Assembly (NCBI GenBank): GCA_003242955.1
Contig: QJPH01000592.1
Span: 1 to 33,692 of the forward strand
Length of the DNA stretch: 33,692 bases
Direction: 5' to 3'
DNA from: Candidatus Methylumidiphilus alinenensis
GTDB lineage: Bacteria > Pseudomonadota > Gammaproteobacteria > Methylococcales > Methylococcaceae
The notes beneath the pieces are model-generated. The model saw only the letters and a program-made list of their open reading frames with translations, searched no databases and was not told the origin of the DNA. Below are positions 18,016-26,127 of this stretch, in pieces. The position numbers and the translations under genes are program-made. Numbering within the stretch: the first letter of the stretch is position 1; each line of letters opens with the position of its first letter.

Positions 18016-19431
18016 ATGAGCATACGCACACGATTCGCACCCAGCCCCACAGGCTACCTTCACATTGGCGGAGCACGCACGGCGCTTTTTTCCTGGCTTT
18101 ACGCCCGCAAACACGGCGGGACGTTCATCTTGCGGATAGAAGACACCGACTTGGAGCGGTCTACGGTTGAGTCGGTCAATGCCATTCTGGAAGGCATGAC
18201 TTGGCTGGGGCTGGAATATGAGGAGGGACCGTTCTATCAGACCGAGCGCTTTGGTCGTTACAAGGAGGTCATCAAGCAGTTGCTGGAAACCGGTCACGCT
18301 TATCATTGCTATTGCTCCAAAGAAGAATTGGACGAACTGCGCACCCGGCAAATGGAAAACAAGGAAAAGCCCCGATATGATGGGCGCTGCCGCCAACGCA
18401 CCGAACCGCGACAGGGTGTCTCTCCGGTGGTTCGCTTTCGCAACCCTGACGATGGCGCGGTGGTGATTGATGACAAGGTCAAGGGCAGGGTTGTAGTCAG
18501 CAACGCGGAGTTGGATGATCTCATCATTGCCCGTTCCGACGGATCGCCAACCTATAATTTGTCAGTGGTGGTGGACGACTTGGACATGAGGGTAACCCAT
18601 GTCATACGCGGTGATGACCATCTGAACAATACCCCGCGCCAGATGAACATCCTCAATGCCTTGGGCGCGGCAGTGCCAATCTATGCCCATGTGCCGATGA
18701 TCCTAGGTGCGGACGGCGCACGTTTGTCCAAGCGCCATGGGGCGGTCAGCGTGATGCAATACCGCGACGAAGGCTATTTGCCGGAAGCCTTGCTTAATTA
18801 TTTGGTGCGGTTAAGTTGGTCCCATGGCGACCAGGAAATCTTTTCCGTGGACGAAATGATAGGCTTGTTTGAAATCGAGGATATCAACGTGTCGGCATCT
18901 TCCTTCAATCCCGACAAGCTTTTGTGGTTAAACCACCATTATTTAATGCACTCCGACCCGCTCCATGTCGCCCACCACCTGCGCTGGCATTTGGGGCAAT
19001 TAGGCATTGACCCGTCCGATGGACCGGACCCGGTGGATATTGTCGTAGCCCAACGGGAGCGCAACAAGACTTTAGTGGATATGGCAAAAAGCAGTGTTTT
19101 CTTCTATCGGGATTTCGAGGATTATGATGAAAAGGCCGCGCAGAAAAATCTAACCGCCAACAGCGCCTTGTTGCTGCAAGACCTGCGCGATAGCCTGGAT
19201 GCCCTGCCGGCATGGAACAAGGAAGCCATACACTTATGCGTGGATTCTGTGGCAAGGGAGGCGGAAGTCAAGATGGGCGTAGTGGCGCAGCCGCTCCGTG
19301 TTGCAGTGTCGGGGACAACCGTTTCGCCTCCTATCGATATTACATTATCCTTGTTAGGGAAAGACAAGACGATATCACGAATAAATCGAGCGGTTTCATT
19401 TATTAAGCAAAAATCTGTCACAACAGGCTAG
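18016..19431 (+). CDS. gltX: Glutamyl-tRNA synthetase
   Basis: 471 aa class I aminoacyl-tRNA synthetase that charges tRNA-Glu. HIGH motif as HIGG at 16-19 ([16 protein letters not shown]); KMSKS motif as LSKR at 237-240 (ARLSKRHG). E. coli zinc ligands Cys98, Cys100 and Cys125 are conserved at the same numbers, but the fourth (His127) is Gln here. The tRNA-Glu(UUC) gene, its substrate, lies about 140 bp downstream and may be co-transcribed. Confidence 0.98.
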
Positions 19432-19477
19432 ACGGAAAGCTTAACACCATTTATAATAATTGGCTCAAGTTGCTTAG

Positions 19478-19553
<76 letters not shown>

Positions 19554-19571
19554 AAGTTCTTGAAACCTTTA

Positions 19572-19647
19572 GTCCCCATCGTCTAGAGGCCTAGGACACC
19601 GCCCTTTCACGGCGGCGACGGGGGTTCGAATCCCCCTGGGGACGCCA
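19572..19647 (+). tRNA. tRNA-Glu (anticodon UUC)
   Basis: 76 nt with encoded CCA. Acceptor GTCCCCA/TGGGGAC; anticodon stem CCGCC/GGCGG around loop CTTTCAC, anticodon TTC; T-loop TTCGAAT. 18 nt after tRNA-Ala; followed by a rho-independent terminator. Confidence 0.97.
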
Positions 19648-19711
19648 AATCCTTAAATTACGGAAAGTTTAAAGTTCCGTGTTTAGCTGGCGAAGTCCAA
19701 AGCCAAAAAAT

Positions 19712-19739
19712 GCCCGGTCAATGACCGGGCTTTTTTTTT
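19712..19739 (+). terminator. Rho-independent terminator after the tRNA pair
   Basis: GCCCGGTCA (19712-19720), a single-A loop region, TGACCGGGC (19722-19730), then nine T. Ends the gltX-tRNA transcript. Confidence 0.93.
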
Positions 19740-19756
19740 GCAATTCAATTGCAAAA
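19736..19756. promoter_or_regulatory. Perfect 21-bp palindrome upstream of the cytochrome cluster
   Basis: TTTTGCAATT, a central C, AATTGCAAAA. It lies about 50 bp upstream of the candidate -35 of the cytochrome operon and overlaps the T-run of the preceding terminator. The dyad would suit a homodimeric regulator, but part may be fortuitous because it uses terminator bases. Confidence 0.35.
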
Positions 19757-19807
19757 TTAGCAACTGAATGTTGACAATGAGTTTGTTGTATAAAGGGCAA
19801 CGTATAG

Positions 19808-19836
19808 TTGACATTAAGCCACATACCGTTTAAATT
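19808..19836 (+). promoter_or_regulatory. Candidate sigma70 promoter of the cytochrome/Mtr cluster
   Basis: Consensus TTGACA (19808-19813), 17-bp spacer, TAAATT (19831-19836), about 37 bp before the ATG of the first cytochrome gene. A second TTGACA at 19771 lacks a well-spaced -10. Confidence 0.5.
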
Positions 19837-19873
19837 CCTTACCAAATAAAATTAATTTTTCTGGGGGAACTTT

Positions 19874-20212
19874 ATGAGAATTTCACAAACAACGCTAGTT
19901 TGCGCCTTTATTGCCTCGGCACTTTTCGCATTTGATGCCAATGCCGTCGATGCCGATGCGGCGAAGGCGCTAGCTAAGAAAAGCAACTGCCTGCGCTGTC
20001 ACGGCATCGACAAGGAAAAAACCGGGCCTGCGTTTAACGCGGTAGCCGCCAAATACAAAGGTGTGGGGACTGCCGAAGAAAAGCTGATAAAGCATCTCGC
20101 CTCGGGGGAAAAAGCCAAGTTCCCCGACGGTCATGAAGAAGATCATATGATACTCAAGACGGACGATCCTGCCGACACCAAAAATCTGGTGGATTGGATT
20201 CTGTCGCTCTGA
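19874..20212 (+). CDS. Periplasmic class I monoheme cytochrome c
   Basis: 112 aa. Signal peptide to about residue 24 (FAFDANA). One heme site, Cys39-Leu-Arg-Cys42-His43 (NCLRCHGIDKEKTGPAFNAVA); the likely distal ligand is Met92 in EEDHMILKT. GGGGGAA lies 4 nt upstream of the ATG. The small soluble cytochrome is the first gene of the MtrA/MtrB cluster, so it probably shuttles electrons between the decaheme conduit and periplasmic or inner-membrane partners, as proposed for MtoD-like proteins. Confidence 0.92.
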   Translation: MRISQTTLVCAFIASALFAFDANAVDADAAKALAKKSNCLRCHGIDKEKTGPAFNAVAAKYKGVGTAEEKLIKHLASGEKAKFPDGHEEDHMILKTDDPADTKNLVDWILSL

Positions 20213-20368
20213 TTTTTAGCCCCTAATTTCCCTTGAGCCGCCCTCCTGAGAGAAGGCGGCAACTGGGTGACAGGTATGTTGAAGATCGACGCACCCCACC
20301 AAACCCAAATCCTGGGCCATCCCTTGCCTAGCCACAACGGTAGTATTTGTTCCTGAAAAGCGAAAATT

Positions 20369-21391
20369 ATGAACCTATTGATTAAAATAATTCTTGTCTG
20401 CGGGATGATGTTTTCATCCGCCTATGCAGAAACGGCCCCTGCCGAAGTATTGGGTAGCCCATTGGTCAAGCCTGGCGTTGCGGGTAACTCTGCGGCGAAG
20501 CCAGCCCAGGGTTTGGACCAAGACGCAGTGTGTACTAGTTGCCATGACGAGAATGACAGCAAGCCCATCCTCGCCATCTACCAGACACCGCACGGCAATA
20601 AGGCCGATGCGCGCACCCCGTCTTGCCAGCAGTGCCACGGTCAGAGCGATGCCCATTTGAAAGGCGTTCCCGGCCAGAAAGGGCGGGCCGCCCCCGACAT
20701 CGTGTTTGGCACAAAAACCAAAGACCATGAGCCAACCCTGCCCGCTACCCAAAATGATAAATGCATTAGCTGCCACCAAAGCGGTTTGCGTACCCATTGG
20801 AGCGGTAGCCAGCATGATATGCAAGGCGTGACATGCAGCAACTGCCATACGGCTCACACACCCAAAGACAAGGTGCTTGAGAGAATCAGCCAGCCGGACG
20901 TTTGCTTTACTTGCCACCAGACCCAGCGGTCAGAGACCCATCTATTCTCCACCCACCCCATTTTGGCCGGCAAGACCGCTTGCTCGGAATGCCATAACCC
21001 CCATGGTTCCACGGGTCCGAAGATGCTAGTCAAACAATCGACTAACGAGACCTGTTATACCTGCCATGCTGAAAAGCGCGGTCCCTTCCTGTGGGAACAC
21101 TCGCCGGTATTTGACGATTGCACCAACTGCCACACGCCGCATGGCTCCAACAATTCACCGTTGTTGAAACAGCGAGTGCCTTGGTTGTGTCAAGAGTGCC
21201 ATACGGCCGATCATGCCAGTACGGTGAACAGCGGGTCGAATTTGATCAATGGCGATGTGACGACCGTTGATGGCAAGCAAACCTTTAACAACCTTTCACC
21301 GCGTGCCCAGGCTAATGGCCTTGCTTGTTTGAACTGCCATTCGATGATTCATGGATCGAACCATCCTGCCGGCGCTAAATTCAACCGATAA
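20369..21391 (+). CDS. mtrA: Decaheme cytochrome c, MtrA/DmsE/PioA family
   Basis: 340 aa. Signal peptide MNLLIKIILVCGMMFSSAYA. Ten CxxCH sites in order: CTSCH (Cys55), CQQCH, CISCH, CSNCH, CFTCH, CSECH, CYTCH, CTNCH, CQECH, CLNCH. Ten hemes in roughly 340 residues is the MtrA signature, a molecular wire that sits inside the MtrB barrel. Paired directly with an MtrB-like gene 22 bp downstream. No outer-surface MtrC/OmcA-type gene is in the window. The direction of electron flow (metal reduction or Fe(II)/extracellular donor oxidation) cannot be told from sequence. Symbol given by family; an mtoA or pioA label would be equally fair. Confidence 0.95.
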   Translation: MNLLIKIILVCGMMFSSAYAETAPAEVLGSPLVKPGVAGNSAAKPAQGLDQDAVCTSCHDENDSKPILAIYQTPHGNKADARTPSCQQCHGQSDAHLKGVPGQKGRAAPDIVFGTKTKDHEPTLPATQNDKCISCHQSGLRTHWSGSQHDMQGVTCSNCHTAHTPKDKVLERISQPDVCFTCHQTQRSETHLFSTHPILAGKTACSECHNPHGSTGPKMLVKQSTNETCYTCHAEKRGPFLWEHSPVFDDCTNCHTPHGSNNSPLLKQRVPWLCQECHTADHASTVNSGSNLINGDVTTVDGKQTFNNLSPRAQANGLACLNCHSMIHGSNHPAGAKFNR

Positions 21392-21413
21392 ACCAGAATA
21401 AGCGGGAAGAATC

Positions 21414-24059
21414 ATGGACAACAAAAATGTAAGCTTCAAACTAAAGGCCAGCGCATTCGCTGTCTTCACCACCTTGCTAATGGGTCAATCCGCAATCGCC
21501 GAAAATGCGACAGGGCAACCCACTGCCAAACCGGTTAAAGCCAGCCATGCGACCAAACACAAAAAAGCCAAAGCGACGACTGCTGGCAAAACGGTAAAAG
21601 CCGCTCCTGTCGCTAGACCTATTGCGGTTGCCCCTGCGCCTAAACCGGCGGTAGCGTTAGCCGGTACGGCAACAAAAGTGGCCGATGCATCGGACAACGC
21701 TGAGTTGAGAGAACTGACGACACCCCAAAGCACCATAGAGGCGGGCGTACTCGGGGTGAGTAATGGCAGTTGGAAGTACGGTCAGTATAACGGTCTGCCG
21801 GATAGCGGAGCCTATGGAATCGGCAACTTTGACATCAAAGGCGGTGGTGCTTACGATAGCAAAGATGCCACCCGTTGGCGCTTGACCGGCAAGAACATTG
21901 GTCTGGAAACACGCGAATTCACCGGCGAATATAAGGACCAGGGCAAATATAAGCTCAATTTCGGCTATGACGAAATTACCCAATACAAACAAGGCACCTA
22001 CCAGACACCTTACATCGGTGCGGGCGGTAATGAGCTTTTTTTACCCCCCAATTGGAAGTATCCGACGACAGCCAATAACATGCGGACCTTGCCGAGTTCT
22101 GACCAACCGCTGTTTCAAGGCGTTGAATTGTCCACCAAGCGTCGTCGATTCGATGGCGGGTTCAGTTATTTTCTGGACAACGAATGGGAGGCCAAAGCCA
22201 GTATGCGCCACGAGGAAAGAAATGGCATCCAAGCACTGGGTGCCCCGATTGTAGCAAGTAGGTCGGTCACGCTGCCTAATCCTATTTCCCAGTCAACGGA
22301 TCAGATCAACGCCAGCCTTAACTTCACTGGCGAAAAAGCATACGGATCATTAGCGTATTACGGATCAATATTCCATAACGACTACAACTCGGTAATCTTC
22401 CAAAACGCATTCTCAGCGCCAGCGGCTGGCAACCCAAAATTTGGGCAGATGAGTAGCATGCCGGACAACCAGTTCCATCAGTTTATTATGAATGGCGGGT
22501 ATAACTTTTCAGCAGACACCAAGTTAGTCGGTTCCGGTGGCTATGGTCGCAATTGGCAGGATCAAAACTTCCTTCCGTATAGCACCTCGACTTTTGCGAT
22601 GCCCACCCAAGGCAATCTGAATGGCGCGGTGGATTTCAAGAATGTCAATGTCAAGCTGACCCATAAGGCGACCAAGGATTTGAATTTTGCGGCATCGTAT
22701 AAATACGACGAGCGCGAAAACCTCACGTCTGTTCACACTTACCAGTTTCCTGATGTGGATACCGCCGGGGCAGGCACTAATTTCCGCAATAACACGCCAT
22801 TCAGCCGAAGAGTCCAAACCGGTAATCTTGATGCTAACTATACCATCGCCAAGGGACATAATTTGAAGCTCGGCTACGAAGTGCAAAACATTGACCGTTG
22901 GTGTAACGGCACATGGACCTCTTGTGTCGATTCATCGACAACTCTGGAAAACATCGGCAAGATCGACTATCGTGGCAACCCGATAGATAGACTAACGACT
23001 AATCTAGGTTACGCCTATTCCAATCGGAGTGCCTATAACTACAATCAAGATAACGCGTATTTGGCATCATTCCAAGGGCCACAGACCTTATCTCAATTGA
23101 GACTATACGATTCTTATTTGGCGACAGGAATACCCGCATGGGGTCCGTTCTTAGGATATCCCACCAAGGGAATGCCCTACCCGTATCCCGGCGTGTTTGT
23201 GAACAATAACCCAGTTACGCTCGCTCCAGGCGGTGGCAATGCACTGGATATAAACGGCTTGGGTCGCTTCAACACAGCACCGCGAGACCGCCAAAGTTTC
23301 CATTCCTTGCTGAGTTATCAGTTGACCGATAAACTGGCGTTATCCGTCAACGGGGATTACAAATACGATAACTACTATGAATCGAACTATGGACTGCAAT
23401 CGTCGAAGAATTGGTCCCTCAACTTCGACAGCAGCTATAACTTCAGCGAAGACCTTAGTGGGCATGTGTTTTACACCTACCAAGATATATTTAACAAGAC
23501 GGCGGGTTCATCAGCCGGCAGTAATAGCAACACAGGCAGCACAGCAGCGGGTTCTGTCGTCGGCGGATGTGTCAATAATGTGTTGGCAAAGAATGTTGCT
23601 GCCAAGATTGACCCCTGCCTGAACTGGCTGTCCAACATGGGCAATAACATCAACACGGTGGGCTTGGGTCTGAAGCAGAAGGGATTGTTTTCTGGCAAAC
23701 TCGATCTTAACGGGGATTTCCTGTTGAGCTTTGCGAAAACCACCACAGATGTAACCGGTGGGCAATATTCATCCGTCACCGGGGCCAATGCAACCACTGG
23801 GCCATTCTATTATATCCCGGCCACTAACATGCCGATTGTCAACACCCAGACTTATCAGTTCAAGCTGAATGCCAAATACAACATCAACAAAGCCTCGGCG
23901 GTTAATTTGGTCTACTCTTTCCAGCACATGTGGAGTAATGATTACACCTACATCGGCATGCAGCCTTTCGGGACACCAACGGGTGTGATGCCCACCAATA
24001 TGCAGGCTCCGGTTTACTCGATTCACGCCGTGGGTTTGTCATACATCTATAATTTCTAG
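21414..24059 (+). CDS. mtrB: MtrB/PioB-family outer-membrane beta-barrel
   Basis: 881 aa. Signal peptide ends near residue 29 (LLMGQSAIA). A Lys/Ala/Pro-rich linker (about 30-90) is followed by a long barrel domain with alternating strands such as WRLTGKNIGLETREFTGEY and KYKLNFGYDEIT, ending SIHAVGLSYIYNF with a terminal Phe as in outer-membrane proteins. GGAAG precedes the ATG. It would form the pore sheath around the decaheme cytochrome. The N-terminal CxxC of Shewanella MtrB is absent; the only cysteines are two widely spaced pairs in presumed loops (WCNGTWTSC; GGCVNN...DPC). The linker is unusually long. Confidence 0.92.
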   Translation: MDNKNVSFKLKASAFAVFTTLLMGQSAIAENATGQPTAKPVKASHATKHKKAKATTAGKTVKAAPVARPIAVAPAPKPAVALAGTATKVADASDNAELRELTTPQSTIEAGVLGVSNGSWKYGQYNGLPDSGAYGIGNFDIKGGGAYDSKDATRWRLTGKNIGLETREFTGEYKDQGKYKLNFGYDEITQYKQGTYQTPYIGAGGNELFLPPNWKYPTTANNMRTLPSSDQPLFQGVELSTKRRRFDGGFSYFLDNEWEAKASMRHEERNGIQALGAPIVASRSVTLPNPISQSTDQINASLNFTGEKAYGSLAYYGSIFHNDYNSVIFQNAFSAPAAGNPKFGQMSSMPDNQFHQFIMNGGYNFSADTKLVGSGGYGRNWQDQNFLPYSTSTFAMPTQGNLNGAVDFKNVNVKLTHKATKDLNFAASYKYDERENLTSVHTYQFPDVDTAGAGTNFRNNTPFSRRVQTGNLDANYTIAKGHNLKLGYEVQNIDRWCNGTWTSCVDSSTTLENIGKIDYRGNPIDRLTTNLGYAYSNRSAYNYNQDNAYLASFQGPQTLSQLRLYDSYLATGIPAWGPFLGYPTKGMPYPYPGVFVNNNPVTLAPGGGNALDINGLGRFNTAPRDRQSFHSLLSYQLTDKLALSVNGDYKYDNYYESNYGLQSSKNWSLNFDSSYNFSEDLSGHVFYTYQDIFNKTAGSSAGSNSNTGSTAAGSVVGGCVNNVLAKNVAAKIDPCLNWLSNMGNNINTVGLGLKQKGLFSGKLDLNGDFLLSFAKTTTDVTGGQYSSVTGANATTGPFYYIPATNMPIVNTQTYQFKLNAKYNINKASAVNLVYSFQHMWSNDYTYIGMQPFGTPTGVMPTNMQAPVYSIHAVGLSYIYNF

Positions 24060-24069
24060 GCGACTGATA

Positions 24070-24810
24070 ATGATTGACACCAAACAGATTACCACGCTGG
24101 GCAAATTGCCAATGCCTTTCAAGGTGTTGTACACTGGCTTTTTGCTAGTCATCGGCGTGGGCTTGATGATGGCGGGGGCTCAGATCATGCTGACCCATGG
24201 CATGGCGGATGGCAAACCGGGTTTGTCTAAAGAGGATATTGTCTATAGTTACTATGGCAACCGGTCCGGCTCCAAACTGGAGGCTGCCCTTACGGGTAAG
24301 ATGAAAGCGAATGCACCAGACGAGGTGCGCTTTAAATTGATCCAGTGGGCACGCGACGAAGCACCGATGGATCAATGGGATAAGATCGGCCCTTTATTGG
24401 AACAAAATTGCAGCAAGTGCCATGATGAGGATTCCGGGCTGGATTTGGTGGCAAAAAAGGAAGTTGCGCAGAAGTTGGCACAAGTTGACCATGGGGCCAG
24501 TTTTGCCGGCCTTACCCGGGTATCCCATATCCATTTGTTTGGCATTAGTTTCATTTTCTTGTTTGTGGGTTGGATATTTGCCATGTCTGAATTTAACGCC
24601 CGATGGAAACTGATTCTGATTGCAACCCCGTTTATTTTCTTGATTCTAGATATTCTGTCTTGGTGGCTGACTAAATTCTGGCCTGAATTTGCTTGGCTCA
24701 CCATGATAGGCGGTTTTGGCTATAGTTTGGCCTCTACTGTGATGATATTTACATCCCTGATGCAAATGTGGTTGCCGCGTTGGGCAGATGAGGATTGGAA
24801 AGCTTCCTAA
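24070..24810 (+). CDS. Four-helix inner-membrane protein with one c-type heme site
   Basis: 246 aa, no family name recognised. Predicted helices at about 18-42, 152-172, 179-200 and 207-232. Between helices 1 and 2 lies a soluble segment (43-150) with one CxxCH, Cys114-Ser-Lys-Cys117-His118 (LEQNCSKCHDEDSGLDL). The second helix opens VSHIHLFGISF, with His153 and His155 at the membrane face, possible ligands for a second heme or a quinol site. It starts 11 bp after mtrB, so it belongs to the conduit. I infer it connects the quinone pool to the periplasmic cytochromes, a role filled by CymA elsewhere. Confidence 0.75.
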   Translation: MIDTKQITTLGKLPMPFKVLYTGFLLVIGVGLMMAGAQIMLTHGMADGKPGLSKEDIVYSYYGNRSGSKLEAALTGKMKANAPDEVRFKLIQWARDEAPMDQWDKIGPLLEQNCSKCHDEDSGLDLVAKKEVAQKLAQVDHGASFAGLTRVSHIHLFGISFIFLFVGWIFAMSEFNARWKLILIATPFIFLILDILSWWLTKFWPEFAWLTMIGGFGYSLASTVMIFTSLMQMWLPRWADEDWKAS

Positions 24811-25341
24811 ACGGTTGTTCTTGTTGTTCTGGTTCTGGTTCCCAGGCTCCAGTGCTCATCGTTATACACAAGTGTGGCGATATTTGTCAGAACACATGAA
24901 TCTTCGACAATTCCAAAGAGCAAGTTTCACGCAAAGACGCAAAGGCGCAAAGAAAATCGCTCTTCTTTGCGTGAAACTACTTTTTCCGGTAAAGATGGTA
25001 TAACCCGTATTCCACGGAATATTTCGACTCGGACGGACTTGTGTATAACGGCGGACGCAGGAGCGCGGGAACCATTAGGAATAACTTCATTTTGGAAGTC
25101 GGAACATTCCATTAGTTCCGGCAATTCACTAATTCACCCCAAATACCTGCAATTGTTTCTCAACTCGCGTATATTAAACTGGCAGGCTGTTTAATAGTAG
25201 CAGCCAGTTTTTAATTCTAAATCCCACGCAAGATTAACGTTAGGGGTCATTGACAGACCAACGCGGTTTAAAAAACCGAGTCGGTATTGATAACGGCGGT
25301 TAAGCTGTAGTGCGAAATAAAGATAACGAGGTAAATAGATC
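24811..25341. other. Gene-free region with inverted repeats
   Basis: No credible gene. Contains AGTTTCACGCAAAG (24923-24936) with its complement at 24965-24978; a terminator-like AAACTGGC (25176-25183) with GCCAGTTT (25203-25210) followed by TT, which could end the conduit transcript; and a hairpin at 25249-25284 related to 17920-17954. Confidence 0.55.
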
Positions 25342-26127
25342 ATGACAGGTTCAATTGTCGCTATGGCTTTCAGTGTGCTATTCGGCACAGGGCTTTTGTA
25401 TTTCTTTTTAGTGACTAGGGGTGCGCTTATTGCCAATGCATTTGTACCCCGCGCACAAGATAGATTCCATGTCTACTGGGTTTATTCCAATATGCGATTA
25501 ATTAAGTTTTCCGACAGGAAAACTTGGGTTGCTGCGGTTTTGTTGTTTCAGTATGACCGATTGGTCGATAAGGTCGTAAGCGAAATCAGGCGGGCCTCAA
25601 TCAACGGCAAAACATTTTTAATGACTTCTTGCGCTTTCGGCGATGTGATGCCTAAGGTTGTCAAAGCTTTAGTCAGGGGCGGGGCAGGTCATATCTGTAT
25701 TAGCGATCTGATTGGAAACGAACTCATACACGCGGGTAAAAAGCTTAATGAATTCCATGGTAAGTTTGAGCTTGCCGAGGCGGATGCCACCTGTATGCCG
25801 AAAGATGATGGCACTGTTGACATCAATCTGATTTTCTTTCTATTCCATGAACTCCCCGATGAAAGCAAGAAACTCGCTTTTAGTGAGGCCGCACGTTTGA
25901 CCGCGCCTGGCGGCAAACTCATCATTGCGGAGTTTCACCGACCACGCAAAAGGATAATGCGCTTTCTAGGCTGTATGTATTTCACCGTATTTGAACCCTT
26001 TGCACTCAGCATGTGGGGACAATACGACCCGGTTCATTGCCTAGAAGGGATGGGAGGTTGGACTTGCGAAAGGGCTACCTATTTTTTCGGCAACTTCCAA
26101 GTTGTGACTGCAACAAAGACAGCATAA
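25342..26127 (+). CDS. RquA-like SAM-methyltransferase homolog (putative rhodoquinone biosynthesis)
   Basis: 261 aa. A hydrophobic N-terminal segment (4-24) is followed by a degenerate class I methyltransferase. Features that, from memory, distinguish RquA from UbiE/COQ5 are present: FQYDRLVDKVV, motif I as MTSCAFGDVMPKVV (93-106) in place of DxGxGxG, LIFFLFHELPDE (163-174), IIAEFHRPRKR (194-204) and FEPFALSMW (217-225), with RATYFFGNFQVV at the end. RquA converts ubiquinone to rhodoquinone. The extra N-terminal helix is unusual. I am fairly confident of the superfamily, less of the RquA assignment. A plain UbiE-like methyltransferase is the alternative. Confidence 0.65.
   Translation: MTGSIVAMAFSVLFGTGLLYFFLVTRGALIANAFVPRAQDRFHVYWVYSNMRLIKFSDRKTWVAAVLLFQYDRLVDKVVSEIRRASINGKTFLMTSCAFGDVMPKVVKALVRGGAGHICISDLIGNELIHAGKKLNEFHGKFELAEADATCMPKDDGTVDINLIFFLFHELPDESKKLAFSEAARLTAPGGKLIIAEFHRPRKRIMRFLGCMYFTVFEPFALSMWGQYDPVHCLEGMGGWTCERATYFFGNFQVVTATKTA

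Follow-up and report, generated by a model that had tools for sequence, protein, structure and literature searches.

Mto-type gene cluster of Candidatus Methylumidiphilus alinenensis with a four-helix monoheme cytochrome in the imoA/cymA position

Genes at the locus and their known relatives

Contig QJPH01000592.1 of the methanotroph Candidatus Methylumidiphilus alinenensis (Methylococcaceae, assembly GCA_003242955.1) was analysed over 33,692 nucleotides, a stretch referred to as the window. Open reading frame (ORF) calling placed four genes on the forward strand between positions 19874 and 24810. They code for a monoheme cytochrome, an MtrA-family protein with ten CxxCH motifs, an MtrB/PioB-type barrel and a membrane cytochrome; the product of 24070-24810 and its homologues are designated X in the following. 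The intergenic gaps within the cluster are 156, 22 and 10 bp. A first-pass annotation, made from the letters of the window, had described four closely spaced same-strand genes of these kinds, and the ORFs, the family assignments and an AlphaFold2 model of X confirmed this description. A methyltransferase-fold gene at 25342-26127 was absent from its gene list. The features are:

19874-20212, + strand: mtoD-like gene, periplasmic monoheme cytochrome c of 112 amino acids with one CxxCH (phmmer to 4XXL)
20369-21391, + strand: mtoA/mtrA-like gene, periplasmic decaheme cytochrome of 340 amino acids with ten CxxCH (TIGR03508; 6r2q_A)
21414-24059, + strand: mtoB/mtrB-like gene, outer-membrane barrel of 881 amino acids (PF11854, TIGR03509; 6r2q_B)
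24070-24810, + strand: X, four-helix inner-membrane monoheme cytochrome of 246 amino acids in the imoA/cymA position, no family match
25342-26127, + strand: linked fifth gene, RquA-like quinone-modifying protein of the methyltransferase fold (NF038261, 118.2 bits, cut-off 175)
19712-19730, + strand: terminator-like stem-loop between tRNA-Glu and the cluster, 8-bp stem with 7 GC pairs and a T-rich tail
19808-19836, + strand: weak sigma-70-like promoter match 5' of mtoD, TTGACA-17-TAAATT, 10/12

The monoheme protein matched Cytochrom_C (PF00034, 3.2e-8) and, across residues 11-112, the structure 4XXL (7.7e-35), with HEEDH aligned to HEEEH. 4XXL is the bis-His cytochrome MtoD of Sideroxydans lithotrophicus with a potential of +155 mV (PMC4412085; this and the other articles cited here are drawn on from portions of their text). 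The second protein was affiliated to the DmsE/MtrA decaheme family TIGR03508 (2.9e-81, 272.7 bits, cut-off 192.2), carries its ten CxxCH motifs between positions 55 and 320 and matched 6r2q_A (8.5e-65). For the barrel, MtrB_PioB PF11854 (5.8e-132) and TIGR03509 (4.3e-130) were both above cut-off, and 6r2q_B was matched with 2.3e-45; 6r2q is MtrAB of Shewanella baltica (PMC10654088). Two family models above their cut-offs, ten CxxCH motifs and adjacent genes with a 22-bp gap bear out the MtrAB-type conduit recognised before. The order mtoD, mtoA, mtoB, X was complete in 27 of 33 excerpts, thus the arrangement is not a product of chance. In the other six the contig or excerpt opens 1-718 bases before the first gene found, and one of them is an excerpt of the intact window. 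The promoter, called good in the first-pass annotation, is present as a sequence match, but it is weak evidence, since the region 19420-25400 holds 10 promoter-like matches on both strands versus 6.4 +/- 2.6 in shuffles.

The four-gene cluster itself is already known. In June 2026, ter Horst et al. reported a four-gene porin-cytochrome (PCC-like) cluster of Methylobacter_1 with the same four products, i.e., a periplasmic monoheme cytochrome, an MtrA-family decaheme cytochrome, an MtrB/PioB porin and a four-helix inner-membrane monoheme cytochrome, at locus tags 02045-02048 in that order; the order is conserved over the Methylococcales, and MtrC/OmcA is missing (PMC13322032). The accessible portion of that text holds no mention of methyltransferase, rhodoquinone, RquA, UbiE, paralog, Sideroxydans, Cyc2, MtoA, MtoD or NapC. 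New here are the linked methylase-like gene, the clade of X, the imoA position and the linkage to Cyc2-like genes. Among the literature matches listed, no title or abstract opening links RquA, or a protein of the X type, to Mto or Cyc2; an article on Acetobacteraceae has Cyc2 and rhodoquinone, treated apart in the accessible text (PMC10715153).

The mto cluster of S. lithotrophicus ES-1 (Slit_2494-2498) comprises mtoD, mtoA, mtoB, imoA (earlier cymA) and pmcA (PMC13390432, PMC4412085). Common to ES-1 and the window are homologues of MtoD, MtoA and MtoB together with a gene for an inner-membrane cytochrome in the cluster. ES-1 has the tetraheme NapC-family ImoA and the low-potential PmcA, whereas the window has the one-heme, four-helix X. 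By the make-up of the ES-1 cluster, with mtoB and mtoA presumably lying between imoA and mtoD, X occupies the imoA/cymA position. All reading frames of the interval between X and the RquA-like gene are free of CxxCH; no search aimed at PmcA itself was made. With the Shewanella MtrCAB-CymA system the window has the MtrA-MtrB core in common; in contrast, the host lacks an MtrC match above cut-off and a CymA-family match.

As a relative of NapC or CymA, X was ruled out by its single CxxCH and the lack of a PF03264 match. The NapC family (PF03264, E 0.001) was found in none of the seven genomes of the genus, the host and six congeners, which upholds the earlier claim of an inner-membrane protein outside the CymA/NapC type. 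Ten of 61 relatives had any match to PF03264, four of them above cut-off, and among the 31 other genomes with an X of the mto-linked clade described below six had a match, full-length in three (L020, L025, L034). Genome G045, of the same order, has its mtrB on the same contig as a PF03264 gene, at a distance of about 2.1 kb, and its X match is C-terminal only (1.7e-4); by gene content G045 would be of the CymA type and the host of the X type. That X replaces CymA, as had been proposed, agrees with where its gene lies and with the missing CymA gene of the host; the quinol activity of X is putative. For a surface MtrC, which had been taken as either dispensable or encoded elsewhere, the search for MtrC/OmcA (TIGR03507) was negative: none of the 61 genomes, host included, was above cut-off, 18 had weak matches, and the best of the host reached 20.7 bits against a cut-off of 209.3. 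This result covers the MtrC/OmcA family, and surface multiheme cytochromes of other kinds may be present.

Protein X and its family

No Pfam or NCBIfam model matched X. Comparison with PDB sequences gave nothing significant (best E 0.97 with the profile, 1.5 with the sequence), and Foldseek found no match among PDB folds (best E 0.76); membership in a known family was ruled out by these searches. The AlphaFold2 model of X (mean predicted local distance difference test score, pLDDT, 89.5) has long helices at 15-42, 145-170, 177-203 and 205-234, and the heme part with the CxxCH at 114-118 sits between helices 1 and 2. Thus, the designation as a four-helix monoheme membrane protein was correct. 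Residues invariant in an alignment of 105 sequences are, among others, C114, C117, H118 and M78 and, within the helices, H153, H155, F157, P187, D194 and W198; H43 is conserved in 104. M78, in the predicted periplasmic part, is a candidate for the sixth heme ligand. As a 180-residue host protein without CxxCH matches residues 142-237 of X (hhalign E 7.2e-7), the bundle of helices appears to occur as an independent unit.

Several relatives of X depart from the monoheme form. On host contig C62 (L003:1426-3222) the genes for the 180-residue protein and for an FMN_bind-like protein (PF04205, 21.8 bits against a cut-off of 22) form a row with a barrel-like ORF; is this a sister system with a flavin replacing heme c? 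In four-helix relatives at L170:3609-4298, L172:3504-4151 and L173:4297-4932 a Met/His-rich loop, identified by eye, replaces the heme part and may bind metal. C-terminally extended relatives (L140:723-1643, L143:3928-4866) adjoin two genes that by eye resemble FAD-dependent oxidoreductases.

A contig scan yielded 447 relatives of X, the best 80 of which were retained and combined with the loci of the host and its relatives into 107 distinct sequences; as the retained rows are best matches, the set leans towards the window. In the X tree 37 of the 107 rows stand on loci with mtoA/B, and 36 of these fall into a single clade of 38 rows with a support of 100/99. The remaining row, the divergent copy L033_8810, is paired with a Cyc2-like gene. 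The two clade rows that lack mtoA/B are L012, with transposase-like ORFs upstream, and L040, preceded by a broken X copy at the start of the contig. The recurrent neighbourhood with mtrAB for which the first-pass annotation had advised to search was found for one clade (36 of 38 rows), whereas the homologues of the whole family lie mainly away from mtrAB (37 of 107 linked), a result it had named as speaking against its proposal; for the clade this does not apply.

In a class sample of 274 genomes X was present in 42 (some with a C-terminal match only), MtrB in 19 and both in four. X and MtrB were adjacent in the host only, and a class-wide linkage was not seen, though contig breaks may hide cases. 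An X family restricted to extracellular electron transfer (EET) was ruled out, the majority of the observed copies being elsewhere. Because most copies lie away from mtrAB and the mto-linked ones form one clade, X of the window appears to stem from a general inner-membrane cytochrome family, not specific to EET, of which one paralogue was recruited to mtoAB; a single recruitment within the Methylococcaceae would be the simplest reading. The MtoB partners of clade X fall in two kinds, 57-82 % and 29-36 % identical to MtoB of the window, and this label requires at least three changes on the X tree. Tandem X copies occur in L033, L043 and L045. The second X of the host stands behind a gpmI-like gene (named by eye), and in the Gallionellaceae/Nitrosomonadales clade the fetched flanks of all 22 rows contain no mtoA/B.

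Two further observations concern the surroundings of X copies. The transposase-like ORFs of L012 (322-1518, by eye) are directly 5' of an X of the mto clade, and the preceding 1.7 kb of the contig contain no mtoAB. In the Gallionellaceae and kin (L049, L052, L057, L060, L063, L072, L075), X lies between PriA-like and GlcD-like FAD oxidase genes, with a small ORF intervening in some loci (all by eye).

Quinone-methylase-like and Cyc2-like genes beside X

ORFs of 35 clade loci, 34 fetched ones and the window, were clustered without a prior gene list. X recurred in 35 loci, MtoB in 33, MtoA in 30 and MtoD in 26; by blastp, MtoD was found in 27 of the 34 fetched loci, plus the window. A UbiE/COQ5-like methyltransferase was present in 13 loci, and in a 14th its ORF is truncated where the contig stops; an RquA-like protein was present in four, and any other neighbour recurs in at most four loci. 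A methylase-like gene consequently lies 3' of X in 18 of the 35 loci, RquA-like in four (the window and three congeners) and UbiE-like in 14. The UbiE-like ORF has the same strand as X, and its position ranges from a 28 bp overlap to 709 bp downstream. That it serves as the sole UbiE of the cell was ruled out in 13 of the 14 genomes with a copy beside X, in which a regular UbiE is also present; the exception is G336 (L012), without a match above the TIGR01934 cut-off. This search covered 26 of the 35 clade genomes and gave 24 above cut-off, all except G336 and G341 (L017).

NF038261, the model of RquA in rhodoquinone biosynthesis, was the best NCBIfam model for the fifth gene of the window, but its equivalog cut-off of 175 bits was reached neither by the window protein (118.2 bits) nor by a protein of class genome G260 (169.2 bits), and the RquA-like product remains putative. 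The motif-I stretch of the window protein reads TSCAFGD; an unusual S-adenosylmethionine motif I has been described for RquA (PMC5953543, PMC9814641). The gene starts 298, 311 and 317 bp after X in the congeners and 531 bp after X in the window. Among the 61 relatives it was found in four, exactly the genomes with the window-type mtoB-X pair and always after X (Fisher 1.9e-6, ignoring relatedness); G045 and G057, which have another MtrB, lack an RquA-like gene. G260 carries in a row a monoheme cytochrome, a Cyc2-like protein with a weak match (48.5 bits), the RquA-like protein and an X of 39 % identity. The recurrence of two unlike quinone-methylase-type genes after X is the best hint that X may work with quinones. 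UbiX-like and UbiA-like ORFs near L009, L010, L029 and L022 were noted by eye in at most three loci and were not used as evidence.

Some copies of X adjoin proteins of 453-487 amino acids with an N-terminal CxxCH followed by FGR/YGR (eight proteins); L050 has a further such Cyc2-like protein, of 405 amino acids. Two of these Cyc2-like proteins were scanned, without a Pfam or NCBIfam match, and a poor AlphaFold2 model of one (mean pLDDT 55.7), used for its strand content only, consists mostly of long strands from residue 85 on. Methylobacter genomes have been annotated with Cyc2 (PMC12810054, PMC12211021). By blastp a Cyc2-like gene was located in four of the 80 named X loci (L033, L040, L050, L080). 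Nineteen of the 61 relatives possess a Cyc2-like gene, and in seven of them an X, broken in the case of G032, is found on the same strand at a distance of up to about 1.5 kb. In the class sample both genes co-occurred in 12 of 274 genomes versus 5.8 expected (hypergeometric 0.005, relatedness ignored), or 0.011 without the host, and one of the 12, G238, has a C-terminal X match only. X is close to the Cyc2-like gene in three of the 12, on the same strand in G081 and G260 and divergent in G100. At L033:2903-10940 and L040:1-3663 an X of the mto clade stands tail to tail with a pair of a second X and a Cyc2-like gene.

Other observations in the window concern the surroundings of the cluster. The gap between X and the RquA-like gene contains at 24930-24952 the repeat-like stretch CGCAAAGACGCAAAGGCGCAAAG, with an inverted partner seen by eye and one match in the window, which may be a small inserted element. 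Between 27963 and 30346, downstream of the cluster, are genes for the sulfite dehydrogenase SorA/SorB, both above cut-off, and a CopD-like gene (PF05425, 38.9 bits, cut-off 32.1).

Proposed electron path, direction and alternatives

From the proteins, their gene order, the linkages, the clade and the missing NapC-family match in the host we infer an electron path, a contact of X with quinone, a product of the RquA-like enzyme and a direction of flow. On balance we lean towards a conduit of the Mto type in which a recruited X serves as the inner-membrane module and works with a modified quinone. The cluster would constitute an Mto/Mtr-type path spanning the cell envelope of an aerobic methanotroph: MtoA within MtoB would conduct electrons across the outer membrane, MtoD would act as periplasmic monoheme carrier, and X, taking the seat of ImoA/CymA, would be the inner-membrane terminus. 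Most likely, X exchanges electrons via its heme between the quinone pool, with a putative site in the highly conserved helix bundle, and the periplasmic cytochrome. The gene after X, RquA-like here and UbiE-like in other lineages, probably alters a quinone and thereby matches its potential to the conduit. An outward flow under oxygen limitation would be preferred, and rhodoquinone from the RquA-like enzyme, if made, would ease the outward step from quinol to X; its potential is -63 mV (PMC11707229). An enrichment containing a Methylobacter with this cluster has been reported to give a methane-dependent current at a poised anode; its authors state that the direction is not established (PMC13322032).

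A number of observations weigh against the proposal of X as a module for modified quinone. X contains a single heme c, no solved relative could be detected, and its predicted contact with quinone draws on conservation and linkage. The +155 mV of Sideroxydans MtoD are too high to reduce ImoA, and an interaction with ImoA or MtoA was not seen according to the available part of the study (PMC13390432), so electrons may not actually pass from MtoD to X. A methylase after X is missing from 17 of the 35 loci, 14 of them with at least 1.5 kb of sequence following X; the other three end less than 400 bp past X. Two of the genomes without a methylase at this place, L038 and L043, have a UbiE-like copy (131-133 bits) away from X. 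The UbiE-like ORFs beside X score 129-148 bits, below the subfamily cut-off of 158, and the RquA-like proteins of the four congeners 118-124 bits versus 175. In the window a terminator-like stem lies between X and the RquA-like gene, which together with the 531-bp gap renders a co-transcription doubtful. By blastp, 76 of the 80 named X loci are without a Cyc2-like gene, and 12 of the 19 relatives bearing a Cyc2-like gene, among them the host, have no X beside it.

Electrons might as well enter the cell from Fe(II), minerals or reduced humics, as proposed for mtoAB of Sideroxydans, with X reducing the quinone pool or feeding an oxidase. This alternative, which differs from the preferred reading in direction only, is a serious possibility, if somewhat improbable. 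The nearest solved relative of the monoheme protein is encoded in the mto cluster of a bacterium that oxidises Fe(II), the host and 60 relatives lack an MtrC/OmcA match above cut-off, and some copies of X adjoin genes similar to Cyc2, which is an iron oxidase (PMC10734462); in Methylobacter S3L5C, cyc2 expression increased with dissolved organic matter (PMC12211021). The methane-dependent anode current, however, suggests outflow, within the reservation of its authors on direction, and a quinone with the low potential of rhodoquinone would suit outflow better. A quinone contact would be dispensable altogether if X were a membrane-anchored relay between MtoD/MtoA and the bc1 complex or a terminal oxidase and the methylases were passengers or served the general quinone supply. 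The single heme c, the invariant M78 as ligand candidate in the periplasmic part, the loci without a methylase and the high-potential MtoD of Sideroxydans, proposed to feed an oxidase (PMC13390432), are all compatible with such a relay. But a plain anchor does not need the invariant H153, H155, D194 and W198 in the helices, two different quinone-methylase-like families follow X, and a distant X in the neighbourhood of a Cyc2-like gene is likewise accompanied by an RquA-like gene; we regard the relay as unlikely.

Least probable by far is a general inner-membrane protein outside the conduit that came to lie behind mtoB by chance and was kept there by synteny. The family is indeed widespread away from mtoAB, e.g., behind the gpmI-like gene of the host or with the priA-like and FAD-oxidase-like neighbours in Gallionellaceae (by eye). 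Yet one clade stays beside mtoA/B in 36 of 38 rows despite differing flanking genes, X occurs in tandem in three loci, and clade X accompanies both divergent kinds of MtoB. Going beyond the preferred reading of a recruited X working with a modified quinone, X might found a new class of inner-membrane quinone:cytochrome c oxidoreductases, with a four-helix core and a swappable periplasmic redox part, which lithotrophs and methanotrophs would attach to outer-membrane conduits as different as MtoAB and Cyc2-like ones and which would be provided with its own quinone-tailoring enzyme for a dedicated EET quinone. We consider this extension speculative and rather doubtful.

The linkage of some members of the X family to Cyc2-like genes presents a candidate for the inner-membrane partner of Cyc2. 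The role of X matters for how EET bacteria without CymA couple an outer-membrane conduit to respiration and, in aerobic methanotrophs, for methane oxidation under scarce oxygen.

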